A stretch of DNA of 64,000 nucleotides from Bacteroidales bacterium (GTDB taxonomy: Bacteria > Bacteroidota > Bacteroidia > Bacteroidales > JAADGE01), in NCBI GenBank assembly GCA_021648725.1, contig JAKISF010000013.1, forward strand, positions 1 through 64,000, given 5' to 3'. The stretch's first letter is position 1. Every line of letters starts with the position of its first letter. Of the stretch, positions 29,510 to 33,238 are shown piece by piece. The notes under the pieces are model-generated. The model searched no databases and was not told the origin of the DNA. It saw nothing but the letters and a program-made list of their open reading frames with translations. The position numbers and the translations under genes are program-made.

Positions 29510-32500
29510 ATGAACATCCAAGAATACATAACAACAATAAACAAACGTTATCAGTCCGGCATAGCAAGAGAACATACTTACAGAACTGATTTAGAAAGTT
29601 TAATTCGAGAACTTGTTCCCGAAGTTGAAATTACCAACGAACCGGCAAACGTAACCGATTGCGGTAATCCGGACTATGTAATTACAAAAAAGAAAATACC
29701 CATTGGATTTATCGAAGCAAAGGACATAGGCAAAGACATTACAAGCAAAACCTATAAAGAACAATTCGACAGATACCGAAAAGCCCTTGACAATTTAATC
29801 ATTACCGATTATATTTATTTCCGGTTCTACGACCACGGAAACCTTGTGCATGAAATCCGCATTGCTGAAATTGAAAACAATACAATAAAAGCCTTTCCGG
29901 ATAATTTCGCACAATTTGAAAACCTAATACAAAACTTTTGCACCTTTATAGGGCAAACCATAAAATCAAGTAAAAAACTTGCTGAAATGATGGCAGCAAA
30001 AGCACGTCTTTTGCAAAACATACTTGAAAATGCCGTTACTTCCGATGAAGAAACACAAGAAAACACATCTTTAAGAGACCAATACAAAACTTTTAAAGAC
30101 ATCTTAATTCACGATTTAACACCAAAAGCATTTGCCGATATTTACGCACAGACTTTGGCTTACGGAATGTTTGCCGCACGATTACACGATAAAACGCTTG
30201 ATGATTTCAGCAGACAAGAAGCCGCAGAACTGATACCGAAATCAAATCCTTTTTTGCGAAAACTATTCGGCTATGTTGCAGGTCCCGATATTGACGAAAG
30301 AATTGTAAGAACAGTTGATAATCTTGCAAATGTTTTTCTGGCAACCAATGTTGAAGAACTTTTAAAGAATTTCGGGAAAAGCACGCAAACCAACGACCCT
30401 ATAATTCATTTTTACGAAACATTTTTGGCAGAATACGACCCCAAGCTCCGTAAAAGCAGAGGCGTTTGGTACACACCCGAACCGGTTGTAAATTTCATTG
30501 TGCGTGCCGTTGATGATATTCTGAAAACAGAATTTAATTTGCCCGACGGATTAGCCGATACCTCTAAAACAAAAATCAAGGTTAAAGAACAGGGTAGCAA
30601 CAAAGCCGTTGAAAAGGAAGTCCATAAAGTTCAAATTCTCGACCCTGCAACAGGCACGGGAACATTTCTTGCCGAAGTAGTAAAACATATTTACAAGAAA
30701 AAGTTTAAAGCCATGCAAGGCGTTTGGAGTTCCTATATTGATGAGCATTTAATACCTCGACTAAACGGTTTTGAGCTTTTAATGGCATCCTACGCAATGG
30801 CACATCTTAAATTAGATATGCTTTTAACGGAAACCGGATACAAAGCTACCAAAAACCAACGTTTTAATATTTATCTTACAAACTCACTCGAAGAACATCA
30901 CCCCGATACCGGAACATTGTTCTCAAATTGGTTAAGCACCGAAGCCAACGAAGCAAACCATATAAAACGTGATACTCCGGTTATGTGTGTAATAGGAAAT
31001 CCGCCTTATTCTGTTAGTAGTTCAAATAAATCTGAATGGATTAATAATTTAATGAAAGATTATAAGAAAGATTTGAATGAAAGGAATATTCAACCTTTAT
31101 CTGATGATTATATCAAATTTATCCGATATGGTCAACATTATATTGAAAAAAATGGAGAAGGTATTTTAGCTTATATTTCTAATAATAGTTTTATTGATGG
31201 AATTATTCATCGTCAAATGAGAAAAGATTTATTAGAAACTTTTGACAACATTTACATTCTGGATTTACATGGAAATTCAAAGAAAAAAGAAAAGCACCCT
31301 GATGGTTCTGCCGACCAAAATGTATTTGATATTATGCAAGGCGTAAGTATTAATATCTTTATAAAAAAATCAAAAAGCAAGAAATTAGGAAGCGTTTCTC
31401 ATATTGACCTCTTCGGAAAAAGGGATTATAAATATAGTTTCCTTAATGATAATTCCATTAATTCAATTAATTGGAACATATTAAACCCTCAAAAAGAAGA
31501 ATACATTTTCATTCCCCAAGATTACGAATTAGAAAAGAAGTATAAACAATTTTGTTTTGGTATTAATGATTTATTTGAAATTGGAAGTAATGGAACTCAA
31601 ACTAAAAGAGATAGTTTATTTGTTGATTTTAATGTTGTTGATTTAAATACAAGAATGTTTAATTTACTATCTGATGAATTTTCCAAAGAATTTTCATTAA
31701 AGTATAATATTCAAGACTCATCATCATACCCATTATTAAGACGGATAAAAGCAAGTGACTATGACAAGGAATACATTTCAGATTATTATTATCGACCATT
31801 AGATTTTAGAAAAATATATTACGATAAACATTTATTAGGAAGACCTTTTTATAAAGTATTAAAACATGTCTATAAAAGGGATAATTTAATGCTAGTTTTA
31901 GGTAGACAAGGACAGGCAGTTGGCTCTTCAACTTGGGATTTAATATCCATTTCTAATATTATAATAGATACAAATCTATTTTACAGAGGTGGAAATATGG
32001 CTTTCCCCCTCTATCTCTACCCTGACAAAGAAACCGAAGGAGTATTTGCCGAAGAAGGCTTATCCGAAAAAGGCAGAAAACCCAACTTAAATCCGGAGAT
32101 AGTTCAAAAAATTGCAGATAAAATAGGATTAAAATTTGTTGCCGAAAAAAAACCCAAATTACAAGATAATTTTGTGCAAAGCCCGGAGGCAAATTCCCCT
32201 CCTTTGGAGGGGTGCCCGCAGGGCGGGGTGGTAAAACCGGAAGTAATCACAACCATAAACAACATCCCAATAAAAAGAAATTTTGTTAAAACCCTTCCAC
32301 ACAACCCCAAATTAAATCAACTTGCCAAAGACAAAAGAAAAGCAGGAATATTATCAGAAGTTTTGTTCTGGAAACAGGTACACAAAAAGAAATTTCATGC
32401 AATAGATTTTGACAGACAAAGAATAATAGGAAATTATATTGTAGATTTTTATGTTAAAACATTAGGTTTGGTTATAGAAATTGATGGAAGTAGCCATAAT

Positions 32501-33238
32501 AATAAAGAAGAATACGATGCAAAAAGACAAAAATATTTAGAGAGCTTAGGTTTGAAAGTTTATAGAATTTCAGATAACCATGTAAAAAAAGATATTAGCC
32601 AAACTATGATAGATTTGGAAAACTATATTGTTAATGAATATGGAGAAACCACCCCGCCCGCCGGGCACCCCTTCATAGGAGGAGAATTTGCTCCGATTGA
32701 TATTCTGGATTACATCTACGCCGTATTACACAGCCCGACATACAGAGAAAAATACAAAGAATTTCTAAAAATAGATTTCCCGAGAGTACCATATCCGAAA
32801 GATGCAAAAACCTTTTGGCAACTCGTAAAACTCGGCGGAGAAATCCGGCAAATACATTTATTGGAAAGCCAAAAAGTAAATGAATACATCACACAATATC
32901 CGATTGATGGCGACAATAAAATCACAACAAAAATTGCAAAAAAAGACTGGGTAATAACCCAACACGGGGACACGTCCCCTTGCAAAGACACGGCTGTTAC
33001 CGGCAGAATATACATCAACGAAACACAATACTTTGATAACATTCCGCTTGTTGCGTGGGAGTTCTACATAGGCGGTTACCAACCCGCCCAAAAATGGTTA
33101 AAAGATCGCTCACCTAAAAAAGGAAAAGAAGGCAGAGTCCTAACATACGAAGACATCACCCACTATCAAAAAATAATAGTTGCCCTTACAGAAACGGATA
33201 GGATTATGAAAGAAATTGATAAAATAAACATTGAATAA
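29510..33238 (+). CDS. Single-chain type IIG/ISP-like restriction-modification enzyme with inserted DUF559 domain
   Basis: A 1242-residue protein combining nuclease, methyltransferase and target recognition. Residues about 50-70 hold a PD-(D/E)xK nuclease site (NPDYVI then GFIEAKD). A helical linker leads to the N6-adenine methyltransferase domain, with motif I DPATGTGTF near 378-386 and motif IV NPPYS near 499-503. The C-terminal part, with IDILDYIYAVLHSPTYREKY and AWEFYIGGYQPAQKW, matches type ISP enzymes. There is no helicase, unlike LlaGI. Residues 894-1060 are an in-frame DUF559 nuclease cassette flanked by inverted repeats (described separately); without it the enzyme would be about 1075 residues. 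The gene is solitary between mnmG and uvrC, a pattern typical of horizontal gain. Its site specificity is unknown, and whether the inserted protein is active is open. Confidence 0.9.
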   Translation: MNIQEYITTINKRYQSGIAREHTYRTDLESLIRELVPEVEITNEPANVTDCGNPDYVITKKKIPIGFIEAKDIGKDITSKTYKEQFDRYRKALDNLIITDYIYFRFYDHGNLVHEIRIAEIENNTIKAFPDNFAQFENLIQNFCTFIGQTIKSSKKLAEMMAAKARLLQNILENAVTSDEETQENTSLRDQYKTFKDILIHDLTPKAFADIYAQTLAYGMFAARLHDKTLDDFSRQEAAELIPKSNPFLRKLFGYVAGPDIDERIVRTVDNLANVFLATNVEELLKNFGKSTQTNDPIIHFYETFLAEYDPKLRKSRGVWYTPEPVVNFIVRAVDDILKTEFNLPDGLADTSKTKIKVKEQGSNKAVEKEVHKVQILDPATGTGTFLAEVVKHIYKKKFKAMQGVWSSYIDEHLIPRLNGFELLMASYAMAHLKLDMLLTETGYKATKNQRFNIYLTNSLEEHHPDTGTLFSNWLSTEANEANHIKRDTPVMCVIGNPPYSVSSSNKSEWINNLMKDYKKDLNERNIQPLSDDYIKFIRYGQHYIEKNGEGILAYISNNSFIDGIIHRQMRKDLLETFDNIYILDLHGNSKKKEKHPDGSADQNVFDIMQGVSINIFIKKSKSKKLGSVSHIDLFGKRDYKYSFLNDNSINSINWNILNPQKEEYIFIPQDYELEKKYKQFCFGINDLFEIGSNGTQTKRDSLFVDFNVVDLNTRMFNLLSDEFSKEFSLKYNIQDSSSYPLLRRIKASDYDKEYISDYYYRPLDFRKIYYDKHLLGRPFYKVLKHVYKRDNLMLVLGRQGQAVGSSTWDLISISNIIIDTNLFYRGGNMAFPLYLYPDKETEGVFAEEGLSEKGRKPNLNPEIVQKIADKIGLKFVAEKKPKLQDNFVQSPEANSPPLEGCPQGGVVKPEVITTINNIPIKRNFVKTLPHNPKLNQLAKDKRKAGILSEVLFWKQVHKKKFHAIDFDRQRIIGNYIVDFYVKTLGLVIEIDGSSHNNKEEYDAKRQKYLESLGLKVYRISDNHVKKDISQTMIDLENYIVNEYGETTPPAGHPFIGGEFAPIDILDYIYAVLHSPTYREKYKEFLKIDFPRVPYPKDAKTFWQLVKLGGEIRQIHLLESQKVNEYITQYPIDGDNKITTKIAKKDWVITQHGDTSPCKDTAVTGRIYINETQYFDNIPLVAWEFYIGGYQPAQKWLKDRSPKKGKEGRVLTYEDITHYQKIIVALTETDRIMKEIDKINIE
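32189..32691 (+). mobile_element. REP-flanked DUF559 endonuclease cassette inserted in frame
   Basis: Two 44-nt inverted arms (32189-32232 and 32648-32691) match at 39 positions when one is reversed. Each is GC-rich and contains smaller hairpins: CCCCTCC-TTT-GGAGGGG at 32196-32212, GCCC-GCA-GGGC at 32214-32224, and GCCC-GCC-GGGC at 32656-32666. Between them lies a DUF559/Vsr-like nuclease domain with FDRQRIIGNYIVDFY and LVIEIDGSSHNN (Asp and Glu-x-Asp catalytic positions near host residues 979 and 990-992). The arms are translated as SPPLEGCPQGG and TTPPAGHPFIGG. The inserted length is about 501 bp, a multiple of three, and the host frame continues without a stop. There is no ATG at the start of the nuclease; the only Met is near its end. 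Confidence 0.82.
32966..32979. repeat. GC-rich palindrome inside the restriction-modification gene
   Basis: GGGGAC-AC-GTCCCC is a perfect dyad within the coding stretch for TQHGDTSPCKDTAV. Its composition contrasts with the surrounding AT-rich gene, and type ISP relatives as I recall them have a shorter linker here. It may be a second small in-frame repeat insertion. Confidence 0.45.

Follow-up and report, generated by a model that had tools for sequence, protein, structure and literature searches.

A putative REP-like mobile unit of hairpin arms and a DUF559 nuclease, inserted in frame in a type ISP restriction-modification protein

Introduction

Short palindromic elements that spread through bacterial genomes have been described in several forms. 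In the accessible text of PMC3733652, some REPs are located inside genes, REPIN/RAYT palindromes are defined with a GTAG or CGTC tag, and Rickettsia palindromic elements (RPE) are palindromes lying in frame within proteins that are probably functional. The locus reported here, found in a stretch of 64,000 nucleotides of a Bacteroidales genome (the window), resembles the REP/REPIN and RAYT systems ('REPtrons') in that short GC-rich hairpins occur as solos, in inverted pairs and flanking a nuclease-type gene as arms. It differs from them in that a DUF559 nuclease takes the place of the Y1/HUH protein, the window arms carry neither tag, the arm pattern is missing at 20 RAYT loci from arm-rich genomes and proteins can contain the complete enzyme unit in frame. 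RPEs are short elements that are not known to include a nuclease. The palindromes of the window are likewise inserted in frame in a protein, but they enclose a 138-aa enzyme.

Nucleases are also known to reside in genes as parts of introns and inteins. An intein consists of a Hint splicing domain with a C-terminal [HN]N motif followed by C, S or T. As with introns and inteins, we observed a nuclease within conserved genes, clades that follow the host site and a patchy presence; unlike them, the present units showed no splicing domain or intron RNA and the reading frame was kept. The yeast WHO elements, as far as the accessible part of PMC7282813 describes them, home without protein splicing, lie downstream of FBA1 and replace the FBA1 3' end. 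They offer a precedent for homing that does not depend on protein splicing, whereas the unit described here is bounded by hairpin arms and lies inside a reading frame. DUF559 itself still ranks as a 'domain of unknown function'. One DUF559 (Vsr-like) protein, Caulobacter VsrA, is reported to be needed for the DNA-damage response in cells without the ScmA methylase (PMC12907096, accessible part). The window nuclease belongs to the same domain family (PF04480; PDB 3hrl), but VsrA is encoded by a gene of its own, and that part of the report (PMC12907096) makes no mention of arms.

Results

An arm-nuclease unit within a type ISP reading frame

The host ORF (29510..33238, + strand) encodes a 1242-aa type ISP restriction-modification protein that is split in frame by the arm-nuclease unit. 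An earlier sequence-only reading had placed two 44-nt inverted arms here, and both their positions and their length were correct: the left arm (32189..32232, + strand), delimited by inverted-repeat comparison with the right one, and the right arm (32648..32691, - strand), an inverted copy of it, are 89% complementary and lie 415 nt apart. The left arm contains a clean outer hairpin (32196-32212, CCCCTCC-TTT-GGAGGGG), an inner hairpin (32214-32224, GCCC-GCA-GGGC) and a tail, GGGGTGGT, pointing inward, and is translated as ANSPPLEGCPQGGVV. The same reading had assigned internal hairpins to each arm; this holds for the left arm, but in the right arm the outer hairpin is imperfect and the hairpin finder returned none. 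The inverted-repeat score of the left and right flanks is 65. Among 379 shifted controls from the same loci the highest score was 30 and none came up to 40, and mismatched flank pairs (n=101) peaked at 42, so that the pairing of the window arms is not due to chance. Neither GTAG nor CGTC occurs in the window arms.

The part coding for the nuclease (32234..32647, + strand, 138 aa) is a full-length relative of free-standing DUF559 proteins and is 69% identical to one of them, a Flavobacterium protein (L006). Its DUF559 domain (PF04480; 32312..32614, + strand) was matched by Pfam at aa 935-1035 of the host protein (E 4.9e-25, profile 3-103 of 109) with 87.9 bits, above the curated cut-off of 20.6 bits. 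The conserved E, D, E-x-D and H are all present, with the D, E-x-D-G and H residues lying in IVDF, IEIDG and SSH. A PDB sequence search with the window nuclease (E<=10) gave 3hrl as its sole match (E 5.9e-12). Apart from DUF559, the profile search of the unit yielded one weak model of a related nuclease, with no Y1/HUH tyrosine transposase and no known transposase; terminal inverted repeats, a trait of insertion sequences, are present. AlphaFold prediction reached a pLDDT of 57.9 for the nuclease, from 5 sequences, and of 32.2 for the host C-terminal part.

As the sequence-only reading had anticipated, the host frame runs through both arms without a stop codon and the nuclease splits the type ISP C-terminal region: Type_ISP_C matches the protein in two stretches, the best of which resumes at aa 1057 (profile 184), the host continuing as APIDILDYIYAVLHSPTYREK... 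in the second Type_ISP_C part (32692..33235, + strand). The nuclease was also rightly described as starting without an ATG of its own, the sole in-frame ATG of the insert being residue 141 of 170, close to the 3' end. An in-frame TTG (32204) and GTG (32228) lie within the left arm and could act as starts; from a reading of the sequence, translation of a separate nuclease might begin internally at the GTG (32228..32230, + strand). The 3.24-Mb genome contains one full DUF559 only, besides one partial match of 26.4 bits, and its arm core (<=3 mismatches) was matched by the two arms alone; the unit is therein single copy and this search returned no solo arms.

The window nuclease as an insertion

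Alignment with type ISP homologues, suggested by the earlier reading, revealed an empty site. Two type ISP relatives (L015 and L016) are 82-84% identical to the window protein around the site and lack DUF559, L016, on the opposite strand, having been compared there as protein. DUF559 was found in three type ISP proteins, with inserts from three different DUF559 branches. In the other two (L162 and L067) it sits at nearly the same profile position. The earlier reading had regarded armless DUF559 domains at the same place as the sign of an old domain; these two have hairpin arms and belong to other branches, the branch support for L162 being low (0.62). Since two close relatives lack the domain and different branches occur in type ISP proteins, the window DUF559 is, on these comparisons, inserted rather than inherited as an old domain, and ancestry within the window protein was rejected. 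We propose that DUF559 arrived in the type ISP region on separate occasions.

Recurrence of arms around DUF559 in Bacteroidota

Of the 392 Bacteroidota genomes sampled, 222 had a DUF559 match, which was strong in 166 by our own cut. C-rich hairpins flanked both sides of 73 of 101 Bacteroidota DUF559 loci, against 2/379 shifted controls, which bears out the expectation that such arms bracket DUF559 in this phylum. The pair was not detected at the remaining 28/101, among them the window, where the right-side hairpin was missed by the finder. Inverted-repeat scores of at least 40 were found at 34/101 loci and at 0/379 shifted controls, the other 67/101 scoring below 40; of 7 relatives tested, 6 had DUF559 enclosed by long inverted arms. 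Two-sided hairpins were present at 12/26 loci in the phylum of L011, counted without a control set. Units measure about 400-670 bp at readable sites and occur free between genes as well as inside them, arms flanking the free-standing copies too. The palindromes of relatives are dispersed as solos and inverted doublets, and arm doublets without DUF559 exist.

Two copies in one genome (L107 and L136) have in common a unit of about 490 bp with 85.5% DNA identity, the similarity stopping near the hairpins; these stretches have further common repeats of 39-348 bp, so this genome is repeat-rich in general. Empty sites, shared architecture, unrelated hosts and dispersed same-genome copies together uphold the earlier proposal that endonuclease and palindromes form a mobile unit, one whose insertion into proteins is tolerated.

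Arms, DUF559 and RAYT

The arms might instead be ordinary REPs moved by a RAYT (Y1/HUH) or another enzyme, DUF559 being a passenger between two REPs. Arm doublets without DUF559 favor this explanation, among them those of a genome (G375) that has arm doublets yet falls outside the 222 DUF559-positive ones. The genome-wide search covered the CCTCACCC/CCCTCTCC subtype only, a pattern that the window's own arms do not match. It was found in 75/166 genomes with strong DUF559 versus 22/226 others, the latter thus having the pattern without strong DUF559; p-values overstate this association because the sampled genomes are related. RAYT presence also correlates with arms (86/293 genomes with RAYT versus 11/99 without), and arms are most numerous in genomes with both (69/146 genomes, mean 4.9). 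Genomes with strong DUF559 and no RAYT match had arms in 6/20 cases (mean 0.7), and in view of these few arms RAYT may have a share in arm spread.

Against the passenger explanation, among the RAYT genomes themselves arms were found in 69/146 with strong DUF559 versus 17/147 without. We compared RAYT loci, by arm pattern and hairpin test, with DUF559 loci, by hairpin test: at 20 RAYT loci from 11 arm-rich genomes the arm pattern was never found, and two-sided hairpins occurred at 1/20, versus 9/11 DUF559 loci from six of the same 11 genomes. The lack of a GTAG or CGTC tag in the window arms and the retention of the active site (see below) also argue against it, and we regard it as unlikely. 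Neither DUF559 nor host relatives were confirmed in viral contigs.

Host proteins and occupancy of insertion sites

At 38 of the 101 loci, DUF559 is part of an ORF of 300 aa or more. Pfam was run on 26 of these 38 ORFs, and the remaining ones were assigned via their cluster. The hosts include LeuRS, MetH, HsdR, IcmF and UvrC; six of the 38 (L070, L090, L118, L119, L149 and L150) are end-on or unassigned fusions with no clear internal insertion, the host region downstream in L118 reading N. Many hosts are restriction-modification proteins (type ISP, HsdR, HsdM, IIG-like and MmeI-like), and some of their inserts cluster in the DUF559 tree (support 0.82), as would be expected if DUF559 had been recruited by ordinary domain accretion as an extra nuclease function of the host, here a restriction enzyme. 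LeuRS, MetH, IcmF and UvrC are hosts as well, however, presence and absence vary within one genus and arm doublets occupy the same IcmF site, which makes accretion very improbable.

One IcmF site was seen in three states: unoccupied, holding an arm doublet or holding the full unit. Among 150 genomes of one genus, 16 MetH rows extend through the insert, and the empty MetH linkers measure 25 aa in 14/14 read; in the comparison for target-site duplications, the linkers around the junction differed greatly between empty and filled alleles. In the DUF559 tree, inserts at one host site form clades (IcmF 24/24, HsdR 4/4, MetH 25 within a clade of 29), and in the IcmF host tree occupied and empty alleles interleave, as judged by tip order only, supports aside. 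Distances between host segments correlated mutually at 0.11-0.32 for IcmF and 0.29-0.64 for MetH, and those between host and DUF559 at -0.01 to 0.19 and -0.02 to 0.23, respectively. In IcmF, host segments thus agreed with one another about as weakly as with DUF559; in MetH, the difference is only suggestive of horizontal spread.

The clades and the interleaved IcmF alleles are also what a site-specific homing endonuclease would produce by cutting the empty host gene (MetH, IcmF, HsdR, LeuRS), with the arms as mere linkers, terminators or by-products of repair. Such an enzyme does not account for arms around free-standing copies, for arm doublets standing alone, for the several DUF559 branches that reached the type ISP region or for the conservation of MetH arms as DNA (see below), and we consider it quite unlikely.

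Read-through of the inserts

The arms are able to pair, and removal of the insert at the RNA or protein level, by novel splicing or ribosome bypass, would account for its tolerance in essential enzymes. IcmF inserts of varied length (459-669 nt) were multiples of three in 23/24 cases, a frame that would be needless if they were excised. Pfam reported no Hint domain among the 26 long ORFs scanned, the [HN]N[CST] motif was absent from the window insert and 15/15 MetH inserts, and Rfam (E<=1) returned no intron family at the insert, the only match, to the sRNA family RF02837, scoring under the gathering threshold. An intron or intein identity was rejected on these grounds, and excision appears extremely improbable. 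In 6/6 genomes the insert-bearing LeuRS is the sole strong LeuRS match. The best reading is that translation yields a single, longer insert-bearing chain from which nothing is spliced.

Conservation of nuclease and arms

The active-site E, D and H are retained in 73-74 of 74 inserts. Estimates of pN/pS were about 0.24 (IcmF) and 0.36 (MetH), with pS near saturation. Between the window and the free-standing L006 unit the arm is 97.6% identical over 42 nt and the body 68%. DNA conservation in MetH was 0.89/0.93 for the arms, 0.85/0.80 for the neighboring host and 0.67 for the nuclease body; at third positions the arms reached 0.80-0.89 versus 0.50-0.60. These arm medians are conservative, since they retain the loci at which the automatic cut misplaced the left arm (L205, L207 and L210) or the right arm (L207). 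By this comparison of sequences, the MetH arms are conserved as DNA beyond coding need.

Discussion

We conclude that the window probably carries a mobile unit of REP-like character that is spread, much as in homing but without splicing, by the nuclease it encodes, its mobility being a matter of inference. Such a unit consists of a hairpin arm, a DUF559 (Vsr-like, PD-(D/E)XK) nuclease and an inverted hairpin arm. That the nuclease may recognize or cut its own repeat arms, as the earlier reading suggested, is indirectly supported by the arm identity with L006, by the RAYT loci and by the conservation of the MetH arms. The nuclease could come from free copies or from the fused chain; it would bind the arms and then cut or nick DNA, and repair would copy the unit, or the arms alone, into the break. 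At established sites (MetH, IcmF) this spread would resemble homing, and new sites, as in the putative separate type ISP arrivals, would be reached ectopically. Among the copies inside genes, the survivors would be those in frame in permissive linkers, with the nuclease looped out of the host chain as an extra domain. The earlier reading also suggested that the host enzyme may carry two nuclease domains.

More tentatively, at slightly less than an even chance in our estimate, DUF559 units belong, together with GIY-YIG units and their separate palindromes, to a broad and so far overlooked group of bacterial mobile elements that carry a small nuclease and do without splicing, in which the nuclease would recognize its cognate REP-like hairpins, seed the genome with palindromes and live in frame in essential enzymes as a tolerated domain.

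If the unit is self-spreading, DUF559 gains a role and a set of REP-like palindromes gains an enzyme. Besides introns and inteins, there would be a third route for a nuclease gene inside an essential gene, that of staying in the protein, and the unusual additional domains seen in LeuRS, MetH, IcmF and restriction enzymes would be accounted for. The insertion sites are a natural map of places where proteins accept a folded domain. Should the broad class prove real, many 'orphan' REP families without RAYTs would be footprints of such units. The question of what spreads REPs without a RAYT becomes directly testable.

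An interrupted type ISP gene

The type ISP restriction-modification gene of the window (29510-33238, 1242 aa) contains a 503-nt interruption with a 44-nt arm at each end (32189-32232 and 32648-32691). The two arms are 89% complementary, and the 138-aa coding part between them matches the Vsr-like DUF559 nuclease (PF04480; Pfam E 4.9e-25). The Type_ISP_C profile accordingly falls into two stretches, resuming at profile position 184. As the sequence-only reading had proposed, the unit reads through in the host frame, the ORF 29510-33238 being open across both arms and the nuclease, and the nuclease lacks an ATG at its beginning: the sole in-frame methionine of the insert lies near its end, so that a separate nuclease would need one of the weak in-frame candidate starts read in the left arm (TTG 32204, GTG 32228) or another weak start. 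Below threshold, the left arm region (32145-32229, minus strand) also matches the Burkholderia sRNA family RF02837 anti-hemB (26.2 bits against a gathering threshold of 49.5, E 0.0011), a family that may itself be a related palindrome.

Type ISP proteins of G006 and G020, from the same genome family as the window, show 84% and 82% identity in the region around the site and carry no DUF559. By this comparison the window unit is an insertion, as had been claimed. Alignment with homologues thus yielded DUF559-free relatives and not the exact empty base position, the linkers being too divergent to fix it: that of locus L015 reads FVAEKPFDSAQGGALSEVEMAPIDIL, that of L016 FVPEKIEDSCELTIGATFAPIDIL and that of the window FVAEKKPKLQDNFVQSPEAN-[unit]-EFAPIDIL. 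The DUF559-free L015 linker holds a different in-frame palindrome (peptide PFDSAQGGALSEVE, DNA TTCGACtccGCTCA..TGAGCgaaGTCGAA), and on these sequences the type ISP linker is a palindrome hot spot. A second variable linker of this protein (32950-33010) contains a short palindrome (GGGGACacGTCCCC) in the window and another repeat-like stretch in L015, and is short in L016.

DUF559 is also present in two other type ISP proteins, L067 and L162, where Type_ISP_C resumes at profile positions 180 and 182. A tree of 145 DUF559 domains places the window with the free-standing loci L006-L009 (support 0.999), L162 with L118, L123 and L155 (0.62), and L067 among inserts of other restriction-modification enzymes (0.82). 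Because the three lie apart, we read them as probable independent arrivals in type ISP, the L162 branch being weakly placed.

Inverted arms around DUF559 genes

A scan of genome contigs recovered eight loci related to the window unit, seven in Bacteroidota and one in Calditrichaeota. The sequence-only reading had pointed to similar arms beside stand-alone DUF559 genes, and we found them: among the seven loci tested (L013 was left out), six (L006-L010, L012) have DUF559 enclosed by inverted arms of 31-68 nt, and L011 has an 18-nt inverted pair. Over 42 nt, the arms of L006 and the window are 97.6% identical, against 68% for the body.

DUF559 matches were present in 222 of 392 Bacteroidota genomes. 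We examined the flanks of the 100 strongest matches plus the window for C-rich hairpins (stem of at least 6, within 260 bp). Bracketing by hairpins is widespread in Bacteroidota: they stood on both sides of 73/101 loci compared with 2/379 shifted positions in the same loci, 44/379 of which had one on at least one side; 28/101 loci had no such pair. For the left-right inverted-repeat score, a value of 40 or more was reached by 34/101 loci, 0/379 shifted controls and 2/101 mismatched flank pairs; by these measures the arms of many loci are short or decayed. In the phylum of L011, DUF559 occurs in 30 of 40 genomes, with hairpins on both sides at 12 of 26 loci read, a figure without matched control.

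Host proteins and insertion sites

ORFs of at least 300 aa contain 38 of the 101 loci. Their hosts, named by Pfam for 26 and by clustering for the remainder, are cobalamin-dependent methionine synthase MetH (8 loci), leucyl-tRNA synthetase (6, the insert preceding or following the editing domain), HsdR (4), type ISP (3), type IIG-like enzymes, HsdM, UvrD-like helicases and IcmF-like methylmalonyl-CoA mutase fusions (2 each), and UvrC, an N4/N6 methylase and an MmeI-like enzyme (1 each); six are end-on or unassigned. Further carriers are two Bacteroidota LeuRS (L246, L248) and an HsdR (L251) in the Calditrichaeota genome of L011. In the HsdR ORF L105, GIY-YIG (aa 251-316) and DUF559 (aa 443-547) both lie after the N-terminal domain and before the helicase domain; the GIY-YIG part is not bracketed by clear inverted arms.

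Six genomes of the 101-locus set, one of them a single contig rated 100% complete, have an insert-bearing LeuRS, and in each that copy is the only strong LeuRS-type match; a second, weak match in each is a protein of 878-909 aa, which we infer to be ValRS. Because no other strong match accompanies the interrupted copy, essential LeuRS functions with its gene so interrupted.

An IcmF query matched 116 of 120 genomes of one genus. At the best 30 loci, the site held a full unit in 24 (459-669 nt), two arms alone facing each other in L192 and L195 (72 and 84 nt), 9 nt in one and nothing in three. Full inserts, though of differing length, are multiples of three in 23 of 24, a regularity that, judged from the sequences, is demanded by read-through and not by splicing or bypass; the exception, L184 (G503), has a 506-nt insert and a broken reading frame. 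A MetH query matched 144 of 150 genomes of one genus, and at least 16 of the matches listed run through the insert. Linker length was 25 aa in all 14 empty MetH loci read. All 15 MetH inserts are multiples of three, having been found by a same-frame search and so not being independent evidence. Two MetH ORFs (L199, L203) contain two DUF559 domains in one reading frame.

Conservation of nuclease and arms

All 74 inserts have the E, E-x-D-G and H residues, and 73 of the 74 the first D; free-standing copies are alike (three loci of unassigned host were omitted from both groups). The pN/pS ratio is about 0.24 in IcmF inserts against 0.05 in their hosts, and 0.36 against 0.18 in MetH, values that indicate purifying selection on the inserts, less strong than that acting on the host; as synonymous sites are near saturation, the ratio does not give its exact strength. 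The DUF559 nuclease is predicted to be kept working in kind.

Median pairwise DNA identity across 15 MetH loci is 0.89 for the left arm and 0.93 for the right, compared with 0.67 in the nuclease and 0.80-0.85 in neighbouring host sequence; at third codon positions, identity is 0.80-0.89 for the arms and 0.50-0.60 for the host. By this measure the arms matter as DNA; low complexity or arm-to-arm gene conversion could add to their identity.

Probable mobility and association of the arms

Two loci of G098 have in common a unit of about 490 bp (85.5% DNA identity) with similarity stopping near the hairpins, the two stretches also having other repeats in common. G186 has three copies, one fused and two free, at 61-65% protein identity. 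Arms also occur as solos and inverted doublets, mostly outside ORFs of 150 aa (20 stretches). G375, not among the DUF559-positive genomes, has REPIN-like doublets whose arms lie about 119 bp from each other (L227, L228, L230, L231).

The arm subtype CCTCACCC-N2-5-CCCTCTCC was found in 97/392 genomes, while the backwards control pattern gave single matches in five. Kinship ignored, it occurs in 75/166 genomes whose DUF559 match is strong (about E<1e-15, our own cut) versus 22/226 others, and the link to RAYT, the Y1/HUH tyrosine transposase of REP elements, is weaker (86/293 versus 11/99); by combination, the counts are 69/146 with both, 6/20 with DUF559 only, 17/147 with RAYT only and 5/79 with neither. 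Among 20 RAYT loci from 11 arm-rich genomes, none had the arm pattern nearby and one had hairpins on both sides; DUF559 loci from six of these genomes had them in 9 of 11. On these counts the arms are associated with DUF559 and not with RAYT, though RAYT may still help spread solo arms.

A proposed nuclease-based mobile unit

Host-site clades in the DUF559 tree (IcmF 24/24, HsdR 4/4, MetH 25 in a clade of 29), together with the tip order of the host tree for IcmF, where empty alleles are interleaved with occupied ones, suggest homing at established sites; a distance-correlation test was only suggestive in MetH and gave no clear signal either way in IcmF. Most economically, the unit would be REP-like, with the DUF559 nuclease standing in for the transposase and the arms serving as its putative recognition sites; we infer cleavage, its target and the insertion route. 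In Caulobacter lacking the ScmA methylase, a DNA-damage response depends on VsrA, a DUF559 protein (PMC12907096), consistent with a nuclease that acts on DNA.

That REPs can lie within genes is known in general (PMC3733652), and homing without splicing is known from yeast (PMC7282813). Literature naming DUF559 or PF04480 showed nothing on this arrangement in its titles and abstract openings, and searches on DUF559 palindromes, in-frame palindromes, LeuRS endonuclease domains, Vsr-type homing, REPIN with endonuclease and intron- or intein-free homing did not find the unit; with many subscription papers and bioRxiv outside coverage, its novelty is not proven. The main text of a 2025 REP survey (PMC12306157) contains neither the words endonuclease and RAYT nor CCTCACCC and CCCTCTCC. 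Because it departs in some defining feature from every known mobile family against which it was compared, we rate the unit as its own kind; it would work like a cross of a REPtron (REP/REPIN plus RAYT) and a homing element.

Small GIY-YIG genes of Bacteroidota (L308-L337; L139:5973-6293), for which we found no literature on flanking palindromes, have their own inverted palindromes, for example GTCATCCTGAACTTGTTTCAGGATCTT and TGTCATTCCCGCGAAGGCGGGAATCC; 15/30 loci versus 1/112 shifted controls have left-right inverted-repeat scores of 36 or more. Because this family shows the same pattern with palindromes that differ from the DUF559 arms, the comparison suggests a wider class of palindrome-flanked nuclease units.
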